This document shows, piece by piece, positions 6,279 to 30,128 of a DNA stretch of 38,735 nucleotides. The position numbers and the translations under genes are program-made. How positions within the stretch are numbered: position 1 is the stretch's first letter; every line of letters begins with the position of its first letter. The notes under the pieces are model-generated. The model did no database searches and had not been told where the DNA came from. It saw nothing but the letters and a program-made list of their open reading frames with translations. Source of the DNA: Verrucomicrobiota bacterium (GTDB lineage: Bacteria; Verrucomicrobiota; Verrucomicrobiia; Limisphaerales; JACDHS01). The stretch is from positions 1-38,735 of the forward strand of contig JACDHS010000038.1 of assembly GCA_013820875.1 (NCBI GenBank), in the 5' to 3' direction.

Positions 6279-8429
6279 TCAGGAACCGCCCTTATCGCTT
6301 GTTGTTCCAACCACGCCGATTTCGACCAAACGGAGACCGCGATTGGATGTGTTCTGCCCAAAATCGAATCGGATGTGTGATGCGTTCACCGGGGCAAATC
6401 GGACACGGCTACGTCCGCCTGCCACGATGTCGCTCAAGGTCGCCACCGGCGCATAGGTCTTTCCATCGAGAGAGGTTGACAAGATCACTTGATGGGGAAT
6501 CCGGGATGCGGGGACTTGCTGCCCATCGCCCTCAAAATAATCGATAAACGCACCACGGATACGTCGGGGTGCTTTCAGGGCAATCGTGACCAACTCGCTC
6601 TGTGCGACGTCGGCGAACGTAACGCCGTCGCTGTAAGAACCATCGATGAGATTTGAAAACTGATTGGGACGTCCCGGGATCACATCATTATGTGGGGCCA
6701 GTTTGGCCGGGGAGGTGATTTCCGCGCCATCGAACCAGAACGCCACATTGTCCGTCTTCTCCTCCACGCGTCGGAAAACGTCGAGTAATTTGCCACCTTC
6801 CGGAAGAGCCTGCAGTTCGGCGAAAAAGTCACGGCTGGAATTCTTCCGCGGATGCTTATGTCCATTCTCATCCAGAAAAAATGCGTGGGGCGAAAAGACG
6901 CGGTTTCCCATTTTTCCCAATCTTTTGATCGCCCGTTCAGGAAGCGTGCGTTCAAGGACGAAGATCCGAGTATTCCGTGGCAGGCGATCGAGTTCATCCG
7001 TCAAGACCAGTTCCAATTCCTCCGGTTTCATGAAATCGCAAATATGAATGTAGGCATCGATGTAGTTCTGATCGGTGATCGTGTAATTCAGCGTCTCCTC
7101 AGGAAAATAAAAATGTATGGTGCCAGGCTTGTAGGAAGAAAAACGCTTTGGGTTTTCCGTGTAGGTTTGATGCAGCGTTCGCCAGGCCAGACCGTTTTCA
7201 ATGCGGCGGGTCCCATCGCCCTTGATCAGCCCCCAGACGTCTTCTCTACCGCACCAGGCCATTGCTCCAGCGGAGGGGCCGCCGACATCAGCCACGAGCT
7301 TGAACGCGCGTGGTTTCACTGCGGGAACTTCCGCGATAAAGAGCTTGTTTCCACTGACGGCGGCAAACTTCGACAGAGTGCGGTATTGGGAATAATATTC
7401 GAGGGAATCGCTGTAAAGATCGGCAGATATAAAATCTCCGGTTTCAGCGGCGGTGCGCATGCTCGCAGCACAACTCGGCACGGTGGCGGAACGAATGTCC
7501 GCAAGGGCGCCGACTGAATTCAACAAGCAACCTCCCGCCCACTTCGCGCCGGGTGCCGCTCGCTTAATGTCAGCGCGCAGCTTCCGCAGCACATCGCGCT
7601 GAATCAAATCCATCGCCTGGCGCAAATCGTAGGTTCTCCGGTTGTTGATGGCGGCAGGATCGACGCCGCCGCCAGTGGACGCCATTAATCCCGGAACGTC
7701 CACCTCTGCGAATGATTTATAAGCGGCATTCCACGACTTGTTCAATGCCTTGATTTTATCGTCATACATCTCCGCCAGTTTCTGGCGGAAGGCCGCAGGA
7801 AACCGCGAACTCTTTTCGTGTTTATACGTATTCCACCACCAGTTCTCATACCAGCCATAGACGACTTGATCTCCGTATTTGGCGGTCAAGTGCTCGACCA
7901 CGAGCAGCGTGAACCAGACGCTCCGCTCGGCATTCTCCGGCACATGCAGCGACATCCATGTCTTCGTCGTCCAGTCACCACGAACCTCCGGAGACGGGCA
8001 AACGTTCGGCGTGAATTGGTGGCGGATCATCCAGTCCATGAGGGTGTCGAGACTCCGCCAATCCGGCTTGCCCAGACTCGATGGGTCGAAGCCGCCATCT
8101 TCGGGCCACGTCAAAAACTTTCGCTCATCCAGCCCAACTTCACTTGGATAGAGCGGAAACCGAATCGCATTGCAACCGAGCGATTTCAGGTAGGCAGCGT
8201 CCTCATCGGTCAATGGCCATCCCCGCGCCAACTGCTGAGGTGGTCCGACATTGTATTGATTCACTCCGAAGAGCACCGCCGGGATCTTCGGCAGCGCATC
8301 TGCCGAGACGGCAAAAGTTCCGCCGCAGAACGCGGCCAGAATGGCGAGTAGGGTTAGGACTGTTTTCACGATTGGCACCAAGTTCAAGCTACCTGCATCG
8401 TCAATGCTAACCTTTTGGCCATCCAGCAA
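6279..8429 (-). CDS. Secreted glycoside-hydrolase-like protein (GH42/GH5-type barrel) with C-terminal beta-sandwich
   Basis: This protein of about 700 residues has a Sec signal (IVKTVLTLLAILAAFCGGTFAVSA). The open frame starts at a TTG (8429). GTG codons at 8378 and 8369 sit better before the signal, so the start is uncertain. Residues 50-400 look like a TIM barrel of the GH42/GH5 clan: GVNQYN at the first strand, NAIRFPLYPSE, then YGDQVVYGWYENWWWN with candidate acid/base Glu195, and KLFIAEVPAV with candidate nucleophile Glu367 (numbering from the TTG). FRQKLAEMYDDKIKALNKSWN matches the GH42 stretch that follows the acid/base. Residues 420-530 form a Rossmann-like domain, and 570-710 a discoidin/F5-8C-like sandwich (IRGAFIDYFEGDG, then VILSTSLDGKTYAPVATLSD). 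The substrate is unknown; plant or microbial polysaccharide is inferred. A deleted partial copy lies at 11653-12076. Confidence 0.75.
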   Translation of the reverse strand: MLDGQKVSIDDAGSLNLVPIVKTVLTLLAILAAFCGGTFAVSADALPKIPAVLFGVNQYNVGPPQQLARGWPLTDEDAAYLKSLGCNAIRFPLYPSEVGLDERKFLTWPEDGGFDPSSLGKPDWRSLDTLMDWMIRHQFTPNVCPSPEVRGDWTTKTWMSLHVPENAERSVWFTLLVVEHLTAKYGDQVVYGWYENWWWNTYKHEKSSRFPAAFRQKLAEMYDDKIKALNKSWNAAYKSFAEVDVPGLMASTGGGVDPAAINNRRTYDLRQAMDLIQRDVLRKLRADIKRAAPGAKWAGGCLLNSVGALADIRSATVPSCAASMRTAAETGDFISADLYSDSLEYYSQYRTLSKFAAVSGNKLFIAEVPAVKPRAFKLVADVGGPSAGAMAWCGREDVWGLIKGDGTRRIENGLAWRTLHQTYTENPKRFSSYKPGTIHFYFPEETLNYTITDQNYIDAYIHICDFMKPEELELVLTDELDRLPRNTRIFVLERTLPERAIKRLGKMGNRVFSPHAFFLDENGHKHPRKNSSRDFFAELQALPEGGKLLDVFRRVEEKTDNVAFWFDGAEITSPAKLAPHNDVIPGRPNQFSNLIDGSYSDGVTFADVAQSELVTIALKAPRRIRGAFIDYFEGDGQQVPASRIPHQVILSTSLDGKTYAPVATLSDIVAGGRSRVRFAPVNASHIRFDFGQNTSNRGLRLVEIGVVGTTSDKGGS

Positions 8430-8590
8430 AATCCGGTGGCAGGGCCTGGCTGCGATACACCGTAATAAACTGCTGGATGCGTTCCGATCACAGTGGATTG
8501 TCCGCTGCCGCTTTTCGCCCGCCAGCGCGCGGGTCCACTCGAAACCGGTGTATTTGAAGGAGCCGAAGGATCGCCTCGGAAGTAGTGAGG

Positions 8591-11652: not shown

Positions 11653-12076
11653 CAGTTGTTGATGGCGGTAGGATCGACACCGCCGCCCGTGGACGCCATC
11701 AATCCCGGAACGTCCACCTCGGCGAATGATTTGTAAGCGGCATTCCACGACTTGTTCAGTGCCTTGATTTTATTGTCATACATCTCTGCCAGTTTTTGGT
11801 GGAAGGTCGCGGGAAACCGCGAACTCTTTTCGTGTTTATACGAATTCCACCACCAGTTCTCATACCAGCCATAGACGATTTGATCTCCGTATTTGGCGGT
11901 CAAGTGCTCGACCACGAGCATCGTGAACCAGACGCTTCGCTCGGCATTCTCCGGCACATGCTGGCTTGCCCAGACTCGATGGGTCGGGTTAGGACTGTTT
12001 TCACGATTGGCACCAAGTTCAAGCGTCCTGCATCGTCGATGCTAACCTTTTGGCCATCCAGCAAAATCCGTCGAAC
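11653..12076 (-). pseudogene. Deleted partial copy of the glycoside-hydrolase-like gene at 6279-8429
   Basis: Three blocks match the intact gene in order. Bases 11653 to about 11962 correspond to about 7640-7950 (residues from HVPENAERSVWFT to VDPTAINN). A short block (cttgcccagactcgatgggtc) corresponds to about 8067-8090. The last block, about 11987-12076, corresponds to about 8350-8428 and holds the signal-peptide region (LDGQKVSIDDAGRLNLVPIVKT). Two internal segments of about 115 and 260 bp are deleted, and everything after the first third of the gene is missing. Many third-position differences show that the copy is old. Confidence 0.85.
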
Positions 12077-15611: not shown

Positions 15612-15718
15612 GTGATTTCCGCAAAAAGGTTGGCCTGGGCGGACTGCTGTTGCTGACGCTGTTGTGCGTCTTTGCAGTCGTTTCTCATTTCCGGGCGAAA
15701 GGGCGCCTTCGAGCCTAG
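15612..15718 (+). pseudogene. 5'-end remnant, near-identical copy of the start of the gene at 25916-27454
   Basis: About 107 bp match 25916-26022 almost base for base (ttccgcaaaaaggttggcc through gggcgaaagggcgcc), covering the start and the membrane anchor. A one-base loss near the start codon shifts the frame. The match stops shortly after the anchor. It directly follows the remnant at 15527-15590. A hairpin ccgcca/tggcgg at 15770-15788 follows in the intergenic DNA. Confidence 0.85.
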
Positions 15719-25915: not shown

Positions 25916-27454
25916 ATGACCTTCCGCAAAAAAGTTGGCCTGGGCGGACTGCTGTTGCTGACGCTGTTGTGCGTCTTTGCAGTCGTTTCTCATTTCCGGG
26001 CGAAAGGGCGCCTGAAAGCCTACTACGCGGAGCTTGCGGCCAGCGGCGAGAAGGTCACGATTGCCGATCTCACCCCCGTTTTTCCGTACGACTCGAACGG
26101 AGCGCCAACGGTGCTCAAAATCAGCGGTGCGCTCAAGCTTGCCGAGTTCACGCCACCGATGATGAGCATGATCGCGCCGGGTGTGGCGAGAGTGGCTTGG
26201 GATCAGCCCGATTTGAGTATCGATTCCTCCTCAGCATCGTTTAAAGGGAAGACAAACGTGTGGGAGGCCCTAGCTGGTGCAGTCGATGGGCGAGAGGCTG
26301 AATTGGCTGAACTACGGAGCACGCTAACAAACTCGGCCTTTTATTTTTCATTGGATTACCAGCAAGGTTTTACGCTCCTTCTCCCGCACCTCGCGCCGTT
26401 GAAGAAAGTCGAACAACAACTTGTCAGTGCAATGATGTTTGACTTGCATCGACAACAGCACGATCTGGCGATGGCGAACCTCATGGCAGCGGTGGCATTG
26501 CCGCGTATTTATACGAATGAGCCGTTGATGATTTCTCAAATGGTTCGTTTTGCGCTGGAGTCCATTGCGATCCATGCAACCTGGGAAGCTTTGCAGTTCG
26601 ATGGCTGGAGCGAGGCTCAACTCGCCGCGTTGCAGAAAAATTGGGAAGGCATTGAGACGCTCGGCGACATCCAGTCGGCATTGCGCATGGAACGTGCCAT
26701 GGGCACATCATATTTCGACAGGATCCGACTGCATGGCTACTCGTCAACAATGAGCCTGACACCGCCACCAACCAGTCTGATAGACAGTTTGTCCGAGTTC
26801 ACAGAAGGAGCCGTCGAAAACCCGGGTGAGGCGCTACGGACCGCCGTCAACAAAACTGTGCTCTGGCAGTTTTGGAAATATATCTGGTCCTACGATGACG
26901 AGATCGAGTATTCCGAGTTTTTTCGTAGAACAATCCGGTCGATTGATACGGCAACTCGTAACGAAAACTTCGGACCAGTTATTGAGGAGCAGCGCGTTTA
27001 CACGGAGGACAACGAGGAAAATTATTTTGATTTCATGGACGAGCCGAACTGGGCGATGGGTCTCGGGCGGATGCCGCGTTTCTGGATGGGAAAATTCGTT
27101 ATTCGCGGGACAAACACCCGGACGATTCAACAGATCGCCGTCACCGCAATCGCGTTGAAGCGCTACCGTCTAAAGCACGGTCGTTATCCGCAAGGTTTGG
27201 AGAATCTTGTTCCGGACTATCTGTCGGAGTTGCCGCGCGACTATTTCGACGGACAGACATTACGTTACAAGCTCCAGCCCGATGGGAATTTTTTGCTCTA
27301 TTCCGTCGGGGAGGATTTGAAGGACGATGGCGGTGAGCCGACCACCAAAAATGGGAAACTGCACTGGCGCCAGGGCCTCGATCTGGTATGGCCGCGTGCC
27401 GCCACGCCGTCTGAGGTAACTGCTTCTCCATTAGCGACTATTAGCGAAGATTAG
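25916..27454 (+). CDS. Membrane-anchored protein with GspG-like C-terminal domain
   Basis: The 512-residue protein has one N-terminal membrane anchor (VGLGGLLLLTLLCVFAVVSHF) and a long helical external part. Residues 400-475 (IQQIAVTAIALKRYRLKHGR, then YPQGLENLVPDYLSELPRDY, then FDGQTLRYKLQPDGNFLLYS) match the C-terminal half of type II secretion major pseudopilins, including the YPxxLexLvP pattern and the strand with Asp residues. The pilin-like N-terminal helix is absent. Such fusions are frequent in Verrucomicrobiota and Planctomycetota; their role is not known. A truncated copy of the first 107 bp lies at 15612-15718. It is followed by a palindromic array rather than a terminator. Confidence 0.75.
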   Translation: MTFRKKVGLGGLLLLTLLCVFAVVSHFRAKGRLKAYYAELAASGEKVTIADLTPVFPYDSNGAPTVLKISGALKLAEFTPPMMSMIAPGVARVAWDQPDLSIDSSSASFKGKTNVWEALAGAVDGREAELAELRSTLTNSAFYFSLDYQQGFTLLLPHLAPLKKVEQQLVSAMMFDLHRQQHDLAMANLMAAVALPRIYTNEPLMISQMVRFALESIAIHATWEALQFDGWSEAQLAALQKNWEGIETLGDIQSALRMERAMGTSYFDRIRLHGYSSTMSLTPPPTSLIDSLSEFTEGAVENPGEALRTAVNKTVLWQFWKYIWSYDDEIEYSEFFRRTIRSIDTATRNENFGPVIEEQRVYTEDNEENYFDFMDEPNWAMGLGRMPRFWMGKFVIRGTNTRTIQQIAVTAIALKRYRLKHGRYPQGLENLVPDYLSELPRDYFDGQTLRYKLQPDGNFLLYSVGEDLKDDGGEPTTKNGKLHWRQGLDLVWPRAATPSEVTASPLATISED

Positions 27455-28112
27455 CGGTTAAACTGCGGTTTTCAGGTTTGTAGGTTAAAATTGCGATAAC
27501 CAGGGGAGCAATTCATAAGCAGAGCTTCTGTACAGAGCGACAGAAAGGCATTTCTCCGGAACATAGTTCCCGTCGGCGCGATGGGGTCTTTTTTGCGCGA
27601 AACAGGGTCCAAAACGGCGCGTCGCGGACCCCTTCACGAAAAAACAGGTCCAAAACCGGCCGTCACGGAGGCCTATTTTTTAAAAGGGCCTTTTTACGGA
27701 AAGTTTTGTTAACGATTTTTTAAAAAAGGCTTCGCGACGGAGATTCCTGAGCCCCTTTTTAAAAAAGGTGTCCGTGACGGCCGGTTTTGAGGCCATTTTA
27801 AAAAAAGGGCTCCAAAACGGCGCGTTTTGGACCTGTTTTTTCGTGAAAGGGTCCGTGACGCTCCGTTTTATACTATGTTTTGCGTGTTTAAGTCTTTGTA
27901 AGCCGCACGGGGAGAGGGTTTTCCGAAGATTGCGCCGTTTCACGCAGTCGGAAGACCGGTGGCGAAGAATTGGCCTCGAAACAGACGTAAAAACAGACCA
28001 AAGGATGATAAGGTTTTCTTGTTCAAGTGGCTCTAAACAAGCCTCGTGGATCGGGTCCGGTCAAACGAAGCTTGATTGTGGTCGGGGTGCGGGACAGGCT
28101 GAAGTTCACGTC
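27455..28112. other. Long intergenic region containing the palindromic array
   Basis: No gene is supported in this 658-bp interval. An open frame of the next gene reaches back to 27768, and a minus-strand frame covers 27680-27943, but both are repeat-derived peptides. The tandem array occupies 27568-27871. The 240 bp between the array and 28113 are unremarkable and must contain the promoter of the DUF3604 gene. Confidence 0.55.
27568..27871. repeat. Tandem array of eight 40-41-bp palindromic units
   Basis: Units start at about 27568, 27608, 27649, 27690, 27731, 27771, 27811 and 27852. Each has a 20-22-bp core that is itself an imperfect palindrome; the best is 27811-27831, tccaaaac...gttttgga around gcgcg. 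A spacer that is also self-complementary follows (cctgttttttcgtgaaagg, gccattttaaaaaaagg). Cores drift between tcc-aaaacgg- and tcc-gtgacgg-type sequence. The units at 27608 and 27852 are inverted versions of each other, so the array as a whole is also close to a palindrome. No cas genes and no conserved repeat of the CRISPR kind. Confidence 0.8.
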
Positions 28113-30128
28113 ATGAGCTGTTTTCGGAGACATTCCTTTGGTTTACCGGGCTGCATTGCCGCAGCCGCACTCTTCTTCTCAATCGCGTCCGCTCCGGCTG
28201 ATCCTCCTCCCAGGCCGGTGATGATTCCCGGTGTCACCTCCAGCGGCAGGGCTACTGTGTCTCCGGCGCAAGGTATCTCCGGCGAGTTCGGTGCCTGGAC
28301 AGTCAAGTTCACCGTCGGCAAAGAGGGGATCGAAACCGGTGGAGGCATTCGTGTGCAATTGCCGGATTCATGGCACTCCGGCCCAAGAAATTCGGCAAAC
28401 AGTTTGCAGTCCCGCGATCCAGCGAAACCTCACTACGTCCAGGCGCGCGTCTCCCGGTCGGGAGTCAAATTCGCTCACCTGGTGGAGTCGGAACGAAGCA
28501 ATGAGGAATTGATCAAGCATCCGAAACTTTCATTGGACGGACGGAACGAGCGATACGTTTTTGTTGTGCGCGTGCATTTGACCGAAGGCCGTTTGCAGGC
28601 AGGTGACACAATCTCGGTGATTTACGGCGAACGCTCTGGCGGCAGTCCGGGAATGTTGGCGGCCGCCATTGCTACCGATCAGGAACCGGTGCTTGTGGCG
28701 GTGGATACGACCGGTAAAAACACATTTCAACGGATAAAAAAGGAGCCGCAAATCCAGTCGCTTGCCGGAGAACCGGTAGAGATGCTCGTTCATGCTCCTT
28801 CGCAGGCTGTGCCGGGACGTCCGGTGCAGATGCTGGTGGCGCTATTGGACGCGCAATATAACCCGGTGATGCGCCCGGTGAAGTTGCGGCTTTCGCTCGT
28901 TACCGGGAACGGGTCGTTTTCGGCCAAAGTTAACGCGCGGCCCCGGAATGGCCGGATTCAGTTCAGTGTGACTCCCAGGAGTGTCGGAGTGTTGCGGGTG
29001 AAAGTTGAAGCACCCGACCTGAAACTCTCCGCGGTTTCGAATCCAACCGATGTCACTAAGGCCCTGCCGGAACGGAAGCTTTACTGGGGTGACATTCATT
29101 CCCATGCGCGGCTTAGCTGGGACGGCGTGGGAGATCGTTCCTTTGAATATGCGCGCCATATTACCGGCCTGGATTTTTATGCGCTCACCGACCACTCGAT
29201 TGAGCCGACCGGCGGCACAACGCGCGGCCTTTCGAAAGAGACCTGGGCTGAATCTGTCGCGCTGACGGAAAAATTTCATGACCCGCCTCACTTTGTGACG
29301 ATTCATGGCTACGAAGCTTCTTTTGACCGGCCGTATGGACATCACAATGTTTACTTTCGTGATCGGCCCGGGCCATTCATTTACCCGGAGCGAACGTCTC
29401 TGGATGAATTGTGGCAAATGGCCGCTGCCGGCGAGGTGCTCACGATTCCGCATCATACCGGCAAATTTCCCGGCGGAATTGATTTCGAGCATCATCATCC
29501 TGACTTCCGCCGGAACTTCGAAATCTATTCCGGGCACGGCTCCAGCGAAGTGTATGCTCCCGGTCAACCGCTTTCATTCGAACGCAGTAACTTCACCCAG
29601 CCATCACGGAGCCTGCCCGCGCCGACGTTCGCCCAGGATGCCTGGAAAAAGGGACTGCTTGTCTCAACCATCGCCGCGTCTGACGATCACCGCGGTCAAC
29701 CCGGTCAGCCTCACTTTGGACTCGCGGCAGTCCGCGCGCCGACCCTCACACGGAACGATGTTTTCCAATCGCTCCACGACCGGCACACTTATGGAACGAC
29801 CGGGGCAAAAGTCATCCTGGAGTTCTCGCTGAATGGTAGCCCAATGGGCAGTTCGGTGCAGGTTGATTCCGCACCGTTGTTGAAGGTCCGCGCGCTCGGA
29901 AGCGGGGTGATCGAAAGAGTCCAAATCCTGAAATGGCAGAAGTCGGCGGAGAAATTTGCCGTTCTGCATTCATGGCATCCCGATGCGCTCGATTTCGAGG
30001 GCGAATACCGGGATGAGGCGTTTACAGCGGGTGCGATCTATTATGTGCGCTTGCGACAAAAGGAACCGATCCGTGATCACCTCGTCAAGGCGTGGTCTTC
30101 TCCCATCTGGACGGAGAAGAAACATTGA
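28113..30128 (+). CDS. DUF3604 protein (PHP-like metal-dependent phosphoesterase fold), exported
   Basis: From the ATG at 28113 the protein has 671 residues and a signal peptide (LPGCIAAAALFFSIASAPAD). The frame is open upstream to 27768, but that part consists of array-derived codons. Residues 25-310 form a beta-rich region typical of DUF3604 N-termini. The metal site follows: YWGDIHSHARLSW (His329, His331), then YALTDHS, IHGYEASF, IPHHTGKFPGG and AASDDHRGQPG, all classic DUF3604/PHP motifs. The C-terminal region (about 560-670) is a beta sandwich. The family is predicted to bind two or three metal ions, but the substrate is not established. Upstream gene is 658 bp away; the alpha-2-macroglobulin gene follows after 362 bp. 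Confidence 0.85.
   Translation: MSCFRRHSFGLPGCIAAAALFFSIASAPADPPPRPVMIPGVTSSGRATVSPAQGISGEFGAWTVKFTVGKEGIETGGGIRVQLPDSWHSGPRNSANSLQSRDPAKPHYVQARVSRSGVKFAHLVESERSNEELIKHPKLSLDGRNERYVFVVRVHLTEGRLQAGDTISVIYGERSGGSPGMLAAAIATDQEPVLVAVDTTGKNTFQRIKKEPQIQSLAGEPVEMLVHAPSQAVPGRPVQMLVALLDAQYNPVMRPVKLRLSLVTGNGSFSAKVNARPRNGRIQFSVTPRSVGVLRVKVEAPDLKLSAVSNPTDVTKALPERKLYWGDIHSHARLSWDGVGDRSFEYARHITGLDFYALTDHSIEPTGGTTRGLSKETWAESVALTEKFHDPPHFVTIHGYEASFDRPYGHHNVYFRDRPGPFIYPERTSLDELWQMAAAGEVLTIPHHTGKFPGGIDFEHHHPDFRRNFEIYSGHGSSEVYAPGQPLSFERSNFTQPSRSLPAPTFAQDAWKKGLLVSTIAASDDHRGQPGQPHFGLAAVRAPTLTRNDVFQSLHDRHTYGTTGAKVILEFSLNGSPMGSSVQVDSAPLLKVRALGSGVIERVQILKWQKSAEKFAVLHSWHPDALDFEGEYRDEAFTAGAIYYVRLRQKEPIRDHLVKAWSSPIWTEKKH

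Follow-up and report, generated by a model that had tools for sequence, protein, structure and literature searches.

The closest described counterparts of the locus studied here come from plasmid partition. In the sopC site of the F plasmid, 43-bp repeats that include inverted repeats stand in tandem; ten units are functional, each spans about four helical turns, and the binder, SopB, is a dimeric HTH protein (PMC7205306). In type III partition, TubR is a small winged-helix repressor with direct repeats (tubC) upstream of its own operon, and it forms a filament on DNA (PMC5016525). In the omega/parS system of pSM19035, iteron arrays overlap promoters and the number of units sets the affinity (PMC5016525). 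Tandem operator arrays to which small HTH proteins bind are already known from plasmid partition.

The window, which is the whole stretch of 38,735 nucleotides that was analysed (contig JACDHS010000038.1 of a Verrucomicrobiota bacterium), carries a tandem array. We consider it fairly probable that this array is an orphan, a copy dispersed from operator arrays in which helically phased sites serve cooperative dimers of winged-helix (wHTH) proteins. Unlike sopC, which is present as one array per plasmid with the SopA partner and a ParB-type protein, the system described here has wHTH proteins of ArsR/MarR type and no partner, and its arrays number in the hundreds and are unrelated in sequence. 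It also differs from TubR/tubC, which is plasmid-borne and has the TubZ GTPase, and from omega/parS, which has another protein fold and another repeat length and is part of a partition system. By analogy, the wHTH-array system may work most like these three, minus the partner NTPase that defines them. ArsR/MarR-family autorepressors share with it the fold, as judged by profile match, and the placement of the array, which adjoins the promoter of the regulator gene itself. They ordinarily use one or two operators, not 4–12 phased units, and the wHTH proteins found here match Pfam HTH_20, HTH_5 and HTH_27 with the listed members below the curated gathering cut-offs.

The initial annotation had read the array as eight units at 40–41-bp steps, and this reading holds at the position given in Table 1: shifted by 40 bp, the sequence has a self-identity of 0.45, and shifted by 41 bp one of 0.51, where 0.25 is expected; autocorrelation peaks again at lags 81, 121 and 162. 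A CRISPR array, which had already been judged a poor fit, was rejected because the units are 60–80% alike over their whole length and near-identical repeats with unique spacers are absent. The likely start of the downstream gene lies about 230 bp past the array, and the other copies of the array have no gene in that position and orientation (context table).

Table 1. Features of the array locus and its surroundings, in window coordinates.
Feature	Position	Strand	Basis
Gene upstream of the array, 512 aa, product exported or in the membrane, outside the element	25916..27454	+	ORF list
Left flank, conserved between copies of the dispersed element, outward extent approximate	27490..27567	.	Six-locus alignment, BLAST extents
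Tandem array of eight 40–41-bp units, orphan, no regulator gene adjoining	27568..27884	.	Autocorrelation, unit listing, TRF, five further genome copies
Left arm of the array-wide inverted repeat	27596..27687	+	92 nt, 82% complementary to 27793–27884
Most conserved stretch, 38 nt identical in six copies, holds GTTAACAAAACTTTCCGTAAA (27693–27713, minus)	27682..27719	-	Permutation, motif search
Right arm of the array-wide inverted repeat	27793..27884	-	82% complementary to 27596–27687
Right flank, conserved between copies of the dispersed element, outward extent approximate	27885..28035	.	Six-locus alignment, BLAST extents
Downstream neighbour gene, exported protein, outside the element	28113..30128	+	ORF list, context table

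A DNA search of the same genome found five more window-type copies at 75–85% identity, on contigs C64, C113, C131, C9 and C227, two of the five in opposite orientation. Homology among the six copies continues into both flanks, from about 27490 to 28035 in the window, so that the element measures about 550 bp. A DNA search of 57 other genomes gave no homologue of the element, and no wHTH gene or detectable remnant of one was found beside any of the six copies. Other arrays were clearly present both in this genome and in its relatives, and the earlier suggestion of an expanded mobile repeat is supported. The window array is best read as a mobile orphan copy in a gene-less family of six, which would have spread from locus to locus.

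Weak matches from the window array led to arrays of other sequence with the same step. Over 530 kb of the genome surveyed by TRF, in stretches chosen without regard to arrays, almost all larger tandem arrays had a period of 41–43 bp, about 27 in number, and none had a basic period of 28–40 or 44–130 bp; the other repeats were short (15–27 bp) or long and of coding type. Extrapolation gives about 290 arrays in this genome (95% CI 190–420). They belong to many unrelated sequence families and are intergenic, with no fixed gene orientation or consistent position relative to genes, and a leader is shared only among arrays of the GTTAAC class. Beside the arrays of the 530-kb survey there was neither a wHTH gene nor a detectable remnant of one, and the only thing to recur beside orphan arrays was repeats. 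Elsewhere in the order, about 299 kb sampled from 18 other genomes contained no array of period 40–44, and 19 kb sampled from G017, which carries a wHTH homologue, contained one; the genomes are mostly draft assemblies, and arrays break assemblies. The step of 41–43 bp in many unrelated arrays, and of 42, 63 or 44 bp in distant relatives, supports the proposal of the initial annotation that same-face helical phasing is a constrained feature. Repeats of 63 bp, corresponding to six helical turns, occur in L215 (G115), L193 (G022) and L235 (G236), and that of L215 lies upstream of a wHTH gene.

Several arrays are flanked by small ArsR/MarR-type wHTH genes, as called from ORFs. Searches from two of these genes gave eight sites in the window's own genome, about sixteen in G001 (MAG RYN_621, Verrucomicrobiales, a member of the window's family) and few elsewhere. 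Nearly all sites in these two genomes adjoin a 41/42-bp array, those on C3 and C144 being cut by contig ends. In one wHTH clade the genes are paired in the order A gene, array, B gene (C590, C402 and C360 of G001). By profile search, the wHTH family is present in 17 of 320 genomes of the same order and in 7 of 388 genomes of the phylum, another class included. Outside the window's family, an upstream array, counted when self-identity was at least 0.55 at lag 42, 63, 84, 44 or 21 bp, was found at 20 of 29 wHTH loci, against about 1.5% of background or random sequence and 0 of 29 downstream (Fisher p = 2e-22 and 1e-8). The nine loci without it are mostly weaker homologues. Typically, about 4–12 units of some 42 bp lie just upstream of the wHTH promoter. 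The parent gene-array arrangement is old; several families share it, and within the Verrucomicrobiota it reaches beyond a single class.

Profile A3 of the wHTH proteins matches the structures of YgaV, ArsR, AdcR and others (hmmsearch, E 8e-6 to 1e-2), and by this profile similarity the linked proteins belong to the ArsR/MarR superfamily. An AlphaFold2 model, made from a two-sequence alignment only, had a pLDDT of 37. In a PADLOC search, 11 of 23 A3 members weakly matched the Csa3 CRISPR-regulator model (best E 6e-8), probably through the shared wHTH domain. At G000:C118:19605–20222, a single 281-aa ORF contains two fused wHTH domains, and its array lies more than 1 kb upstream. At G000:C27:37885–38635 (L038:886–1636), a MISL RNA (RF03079, 560 bits) has an array in its vicinity, together with a B-type wHTH gene and a Y1 transposase.

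Between the array and the wHTH gene there is a conserved promoter-like element, GCTTGCCG-N17-AAAGATG, and the ATG follows some ten bases further downstream. Most loci of the window's family have the element at positions -83 to -90 relative to the wHTH domain, and its pattern has three matches in the whole of the window's genome, all at wHTH genes; it is weak or unrecognised at several more distant loci. The promoter is near-leaderless. The array mostly ends about 40–130 bp upstream of the -35 element, so it lies outside the transcript of the wHTH gene, which favours action as DNA, and its position upstream of the gene's own promoter suggests autoregulation. In 28 gene-array pairs, protein identity was correlated with unit similarity read on the gene strand (Mantel r = 0.43, p = 0.0002), whereas the reverse strand gave no correlation (r = 0.005, p = 0.46). 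Gene and array therefore descend together as one oriented unit. Such co-variation is what cognate recognition predicts; it is also expected from mere joint inheritance and is not proof of binding.

The longest invariant stretch of the window element, the 38-nt run of Table 1 (permutation p = 0.005 on gap-free columns), contains without mismatch the motif of the arrays linked to A/B wHTH genes. Exact matches to this motif in the same genome fall in arrays on C9, C27, C34, C64, C93, C113, C126, C131, C173 and C227; the reversed control pattern gave zero matches in that genome, and a motif scan of viral contigs gave none. On C173, a GTTAAC-type array and a window-type fragment are about 120 bp apart. 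This locus and the one motif unit make up the link between the window array and wHTH proteins. Since the window copies keep the unit with the A/B motif, the array is probably bound in trans by the A/B-clade wHTH proteins encoded at C126 and C27.

In the mechanism that we propose, wHTH dimers would bind successive sites of an array on one face of the DNA, would cooperate along the array and would regulate their own promoter. A four-turn step would put all sites on the same face and suit lateral cooperation. Dimers of ArsR/MarR type typically cover about 20 bp, so a unit of 41–43 bp could hold two dimers, or one dimer and a spacer. Autocorrelation at lag 21 inside the 41/42-bp arrays was not raised (0.009–0.014); with this half-period signal absent, two equal sites per unit are not established and the two-dimer version is a guess. 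In the window's family, arrays with or without their gene may have been copied round the genome, the sequence diverging and the geometry staying fixed. An orphan such as the window copy could act as a decoy or provide a secondary site of regulation, could form a nucleoprotein patch locally, or could be a passenger. Of the roles offered in the initial annotation, a nucleoprotein scaffold to which proteins would bind is supported as the likeliest. A bolder proposal is self-addressing chromatin, in which wHTH proteins would co-evolve with their own arrays at fixed geometry and some 300 arrays per chromosome would act as nodes that organise or silence it. This is speculative and rather improbable; it would extend through the Verrucomicrobiota with many sequence codes, a node role in some lineages, a 41–43-bp unit and a 21-bp quantum, the last of which is drawn from lags of 63, 44/22 and 21 bp at few loci.

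As had been described, the window array is near-palindromic as a whole, being an imperfect inverted repeat with the arms listed in Table 1; about the centre at 27740, 92 of 149 positions are symmetric. The further description of every core as a palindrome did not hold up, because a single core, that at 27811 (9/10), exceeded the shuffled 99% level in a best-of-search test, and the remaining cores scored 4–6 of 10, where the null median is 5. Symmetry of the spacers is moderate, four of them scoring 7–8 of 9–10. A tandem array with a dyad at one centre has second centres half a period off, so palindromic core and palindromic spacer are one fact, and the symmetry is a property of the whole array, not of most single cores. 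Nor is it supported that the cores vary while keeping their symmetry: among the six copies, two-sided changes affect 3 pairs, compared with 2.5 in shuffles. Of 68 array units, some are palindromes but many lack this symmetry; plain direct repeats make up many arrays, especially those adjoining wHTH genes. Palindromic cores as the selected feature are not supported, nor is covariation driven by pairing. The palindromic core as array unit was rejected for most window cores and most wHTH-linked arrays. A structured RNA or transcribed hairpin, formed by the long stem of the window array, would agree with the strong folding of the + strand (z-score -13, minimum free energy -175 kcal/mol). However, the array-wide inverted symmetry yields this energy by itself, the count of pair changes given above is no excess of compensatory change for the long hairpin, and the RNAalifold covariation term across the six copies is unfavourable. 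Moreover, Rfam covariance models match only a tRNA in the window, and at wHTH loci the promoter is downstream of the array. RNA structure was therefore rejected and is highly improbable.

A more serious alternative is that the arrays are MITE-like elements only, 0.4–0.8 kb in length, copied by a transposase and without binding function, the 41-bp unit being a product of amplification. In agreement with this account, homologous elements sit at unrelated loci in both orientations, their flanks conserved and their ends sharp; the copy number of the array changes by whole units, and there is neither an internal gene nor a consistent gene context. What it leaves unexplained is the single period of unrelated units, the 42-bp arrays that distant families have at wHTH genes, the placement of the promoter and the invariant 38-nt unit; in addition, terminal repeats and target duplications were not seen when the element ends were compared, by eye only. 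We regard it as rather unlikely. A centromere or partition-like site, as in F sopC or TubR/tubC, was another suggestion of the initial annotation, and the 43-bp repeat of sopC with its inverted repeats is in its favour (PMC7205306). It was not borne out and is very improbable: the 29 wHTH loci share no family of neighbouring genes other than one glycosyltransferase pair and scattered weak matches, and have no ATPase or GTPase partner, a tblastn search with one protein against plasmids and one against phages gave no homologue, and each chromosome would have hundreds of arrays. Neither an NTPase partner in the operon nor occurrence on plasmids or low-copy replicons was found. Finally, REP/BIME-type repeats moved by RAYT (Y1) transposases are likewise extragenic, dispersed and partly palindromic, and the window's genome has five Y1 transposases, one beside the C27 array, with an array within 2 kb at two of the five loci. 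Their GTAG/CGTC tags occur in the array units at the level of chance (30 of 68, shuffled mean 30.8), and REP units are 20–40-bp palindromes (PMC3733652), whereas many array units are non-palindromic and the arrays have a fixed 41–43-bp tandem period and a link to wHTH genes. With the tags at chance and so few transposases, this origin was rejected and is hardly credible.

In the open-access literature we found no published description of such arrays, which is weak evidence of novelty. What appears to be undescribed is that chromosomal arrays occur by the hundred, unrelated in sequence yet fixed in helical period, and are tied to a regulator family that co-varies with them across a phylum. With its many natural pairs of protein and array, whose recognition code and helical phasing vary independently of each other, the system makes cooperative assembly on DNA, co-evolution of binder and site, and the spread of orphan sites directly testable.

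The window also contains other repeats. Positions 15617–15717 are 96% identical to 25922–26022 and duplicate the first 100 nt or so of the gene at 25916–27454. The C-terminus of the same gene is supplied by a second dispersed repeat of high copy number at 27416–27480 (ATTAGCGACTATTAGCGAAGATTAGCGGTTAAACTGCGG...), which has about 35 matches at 87–96% identity, several of them at contig ends. The gene at 6279–8429 is partly duplicated in broken form, 7641–7947 corresponding to 11655–11961 and 8348–8435 to 11983–12070 at 94–95% identity.
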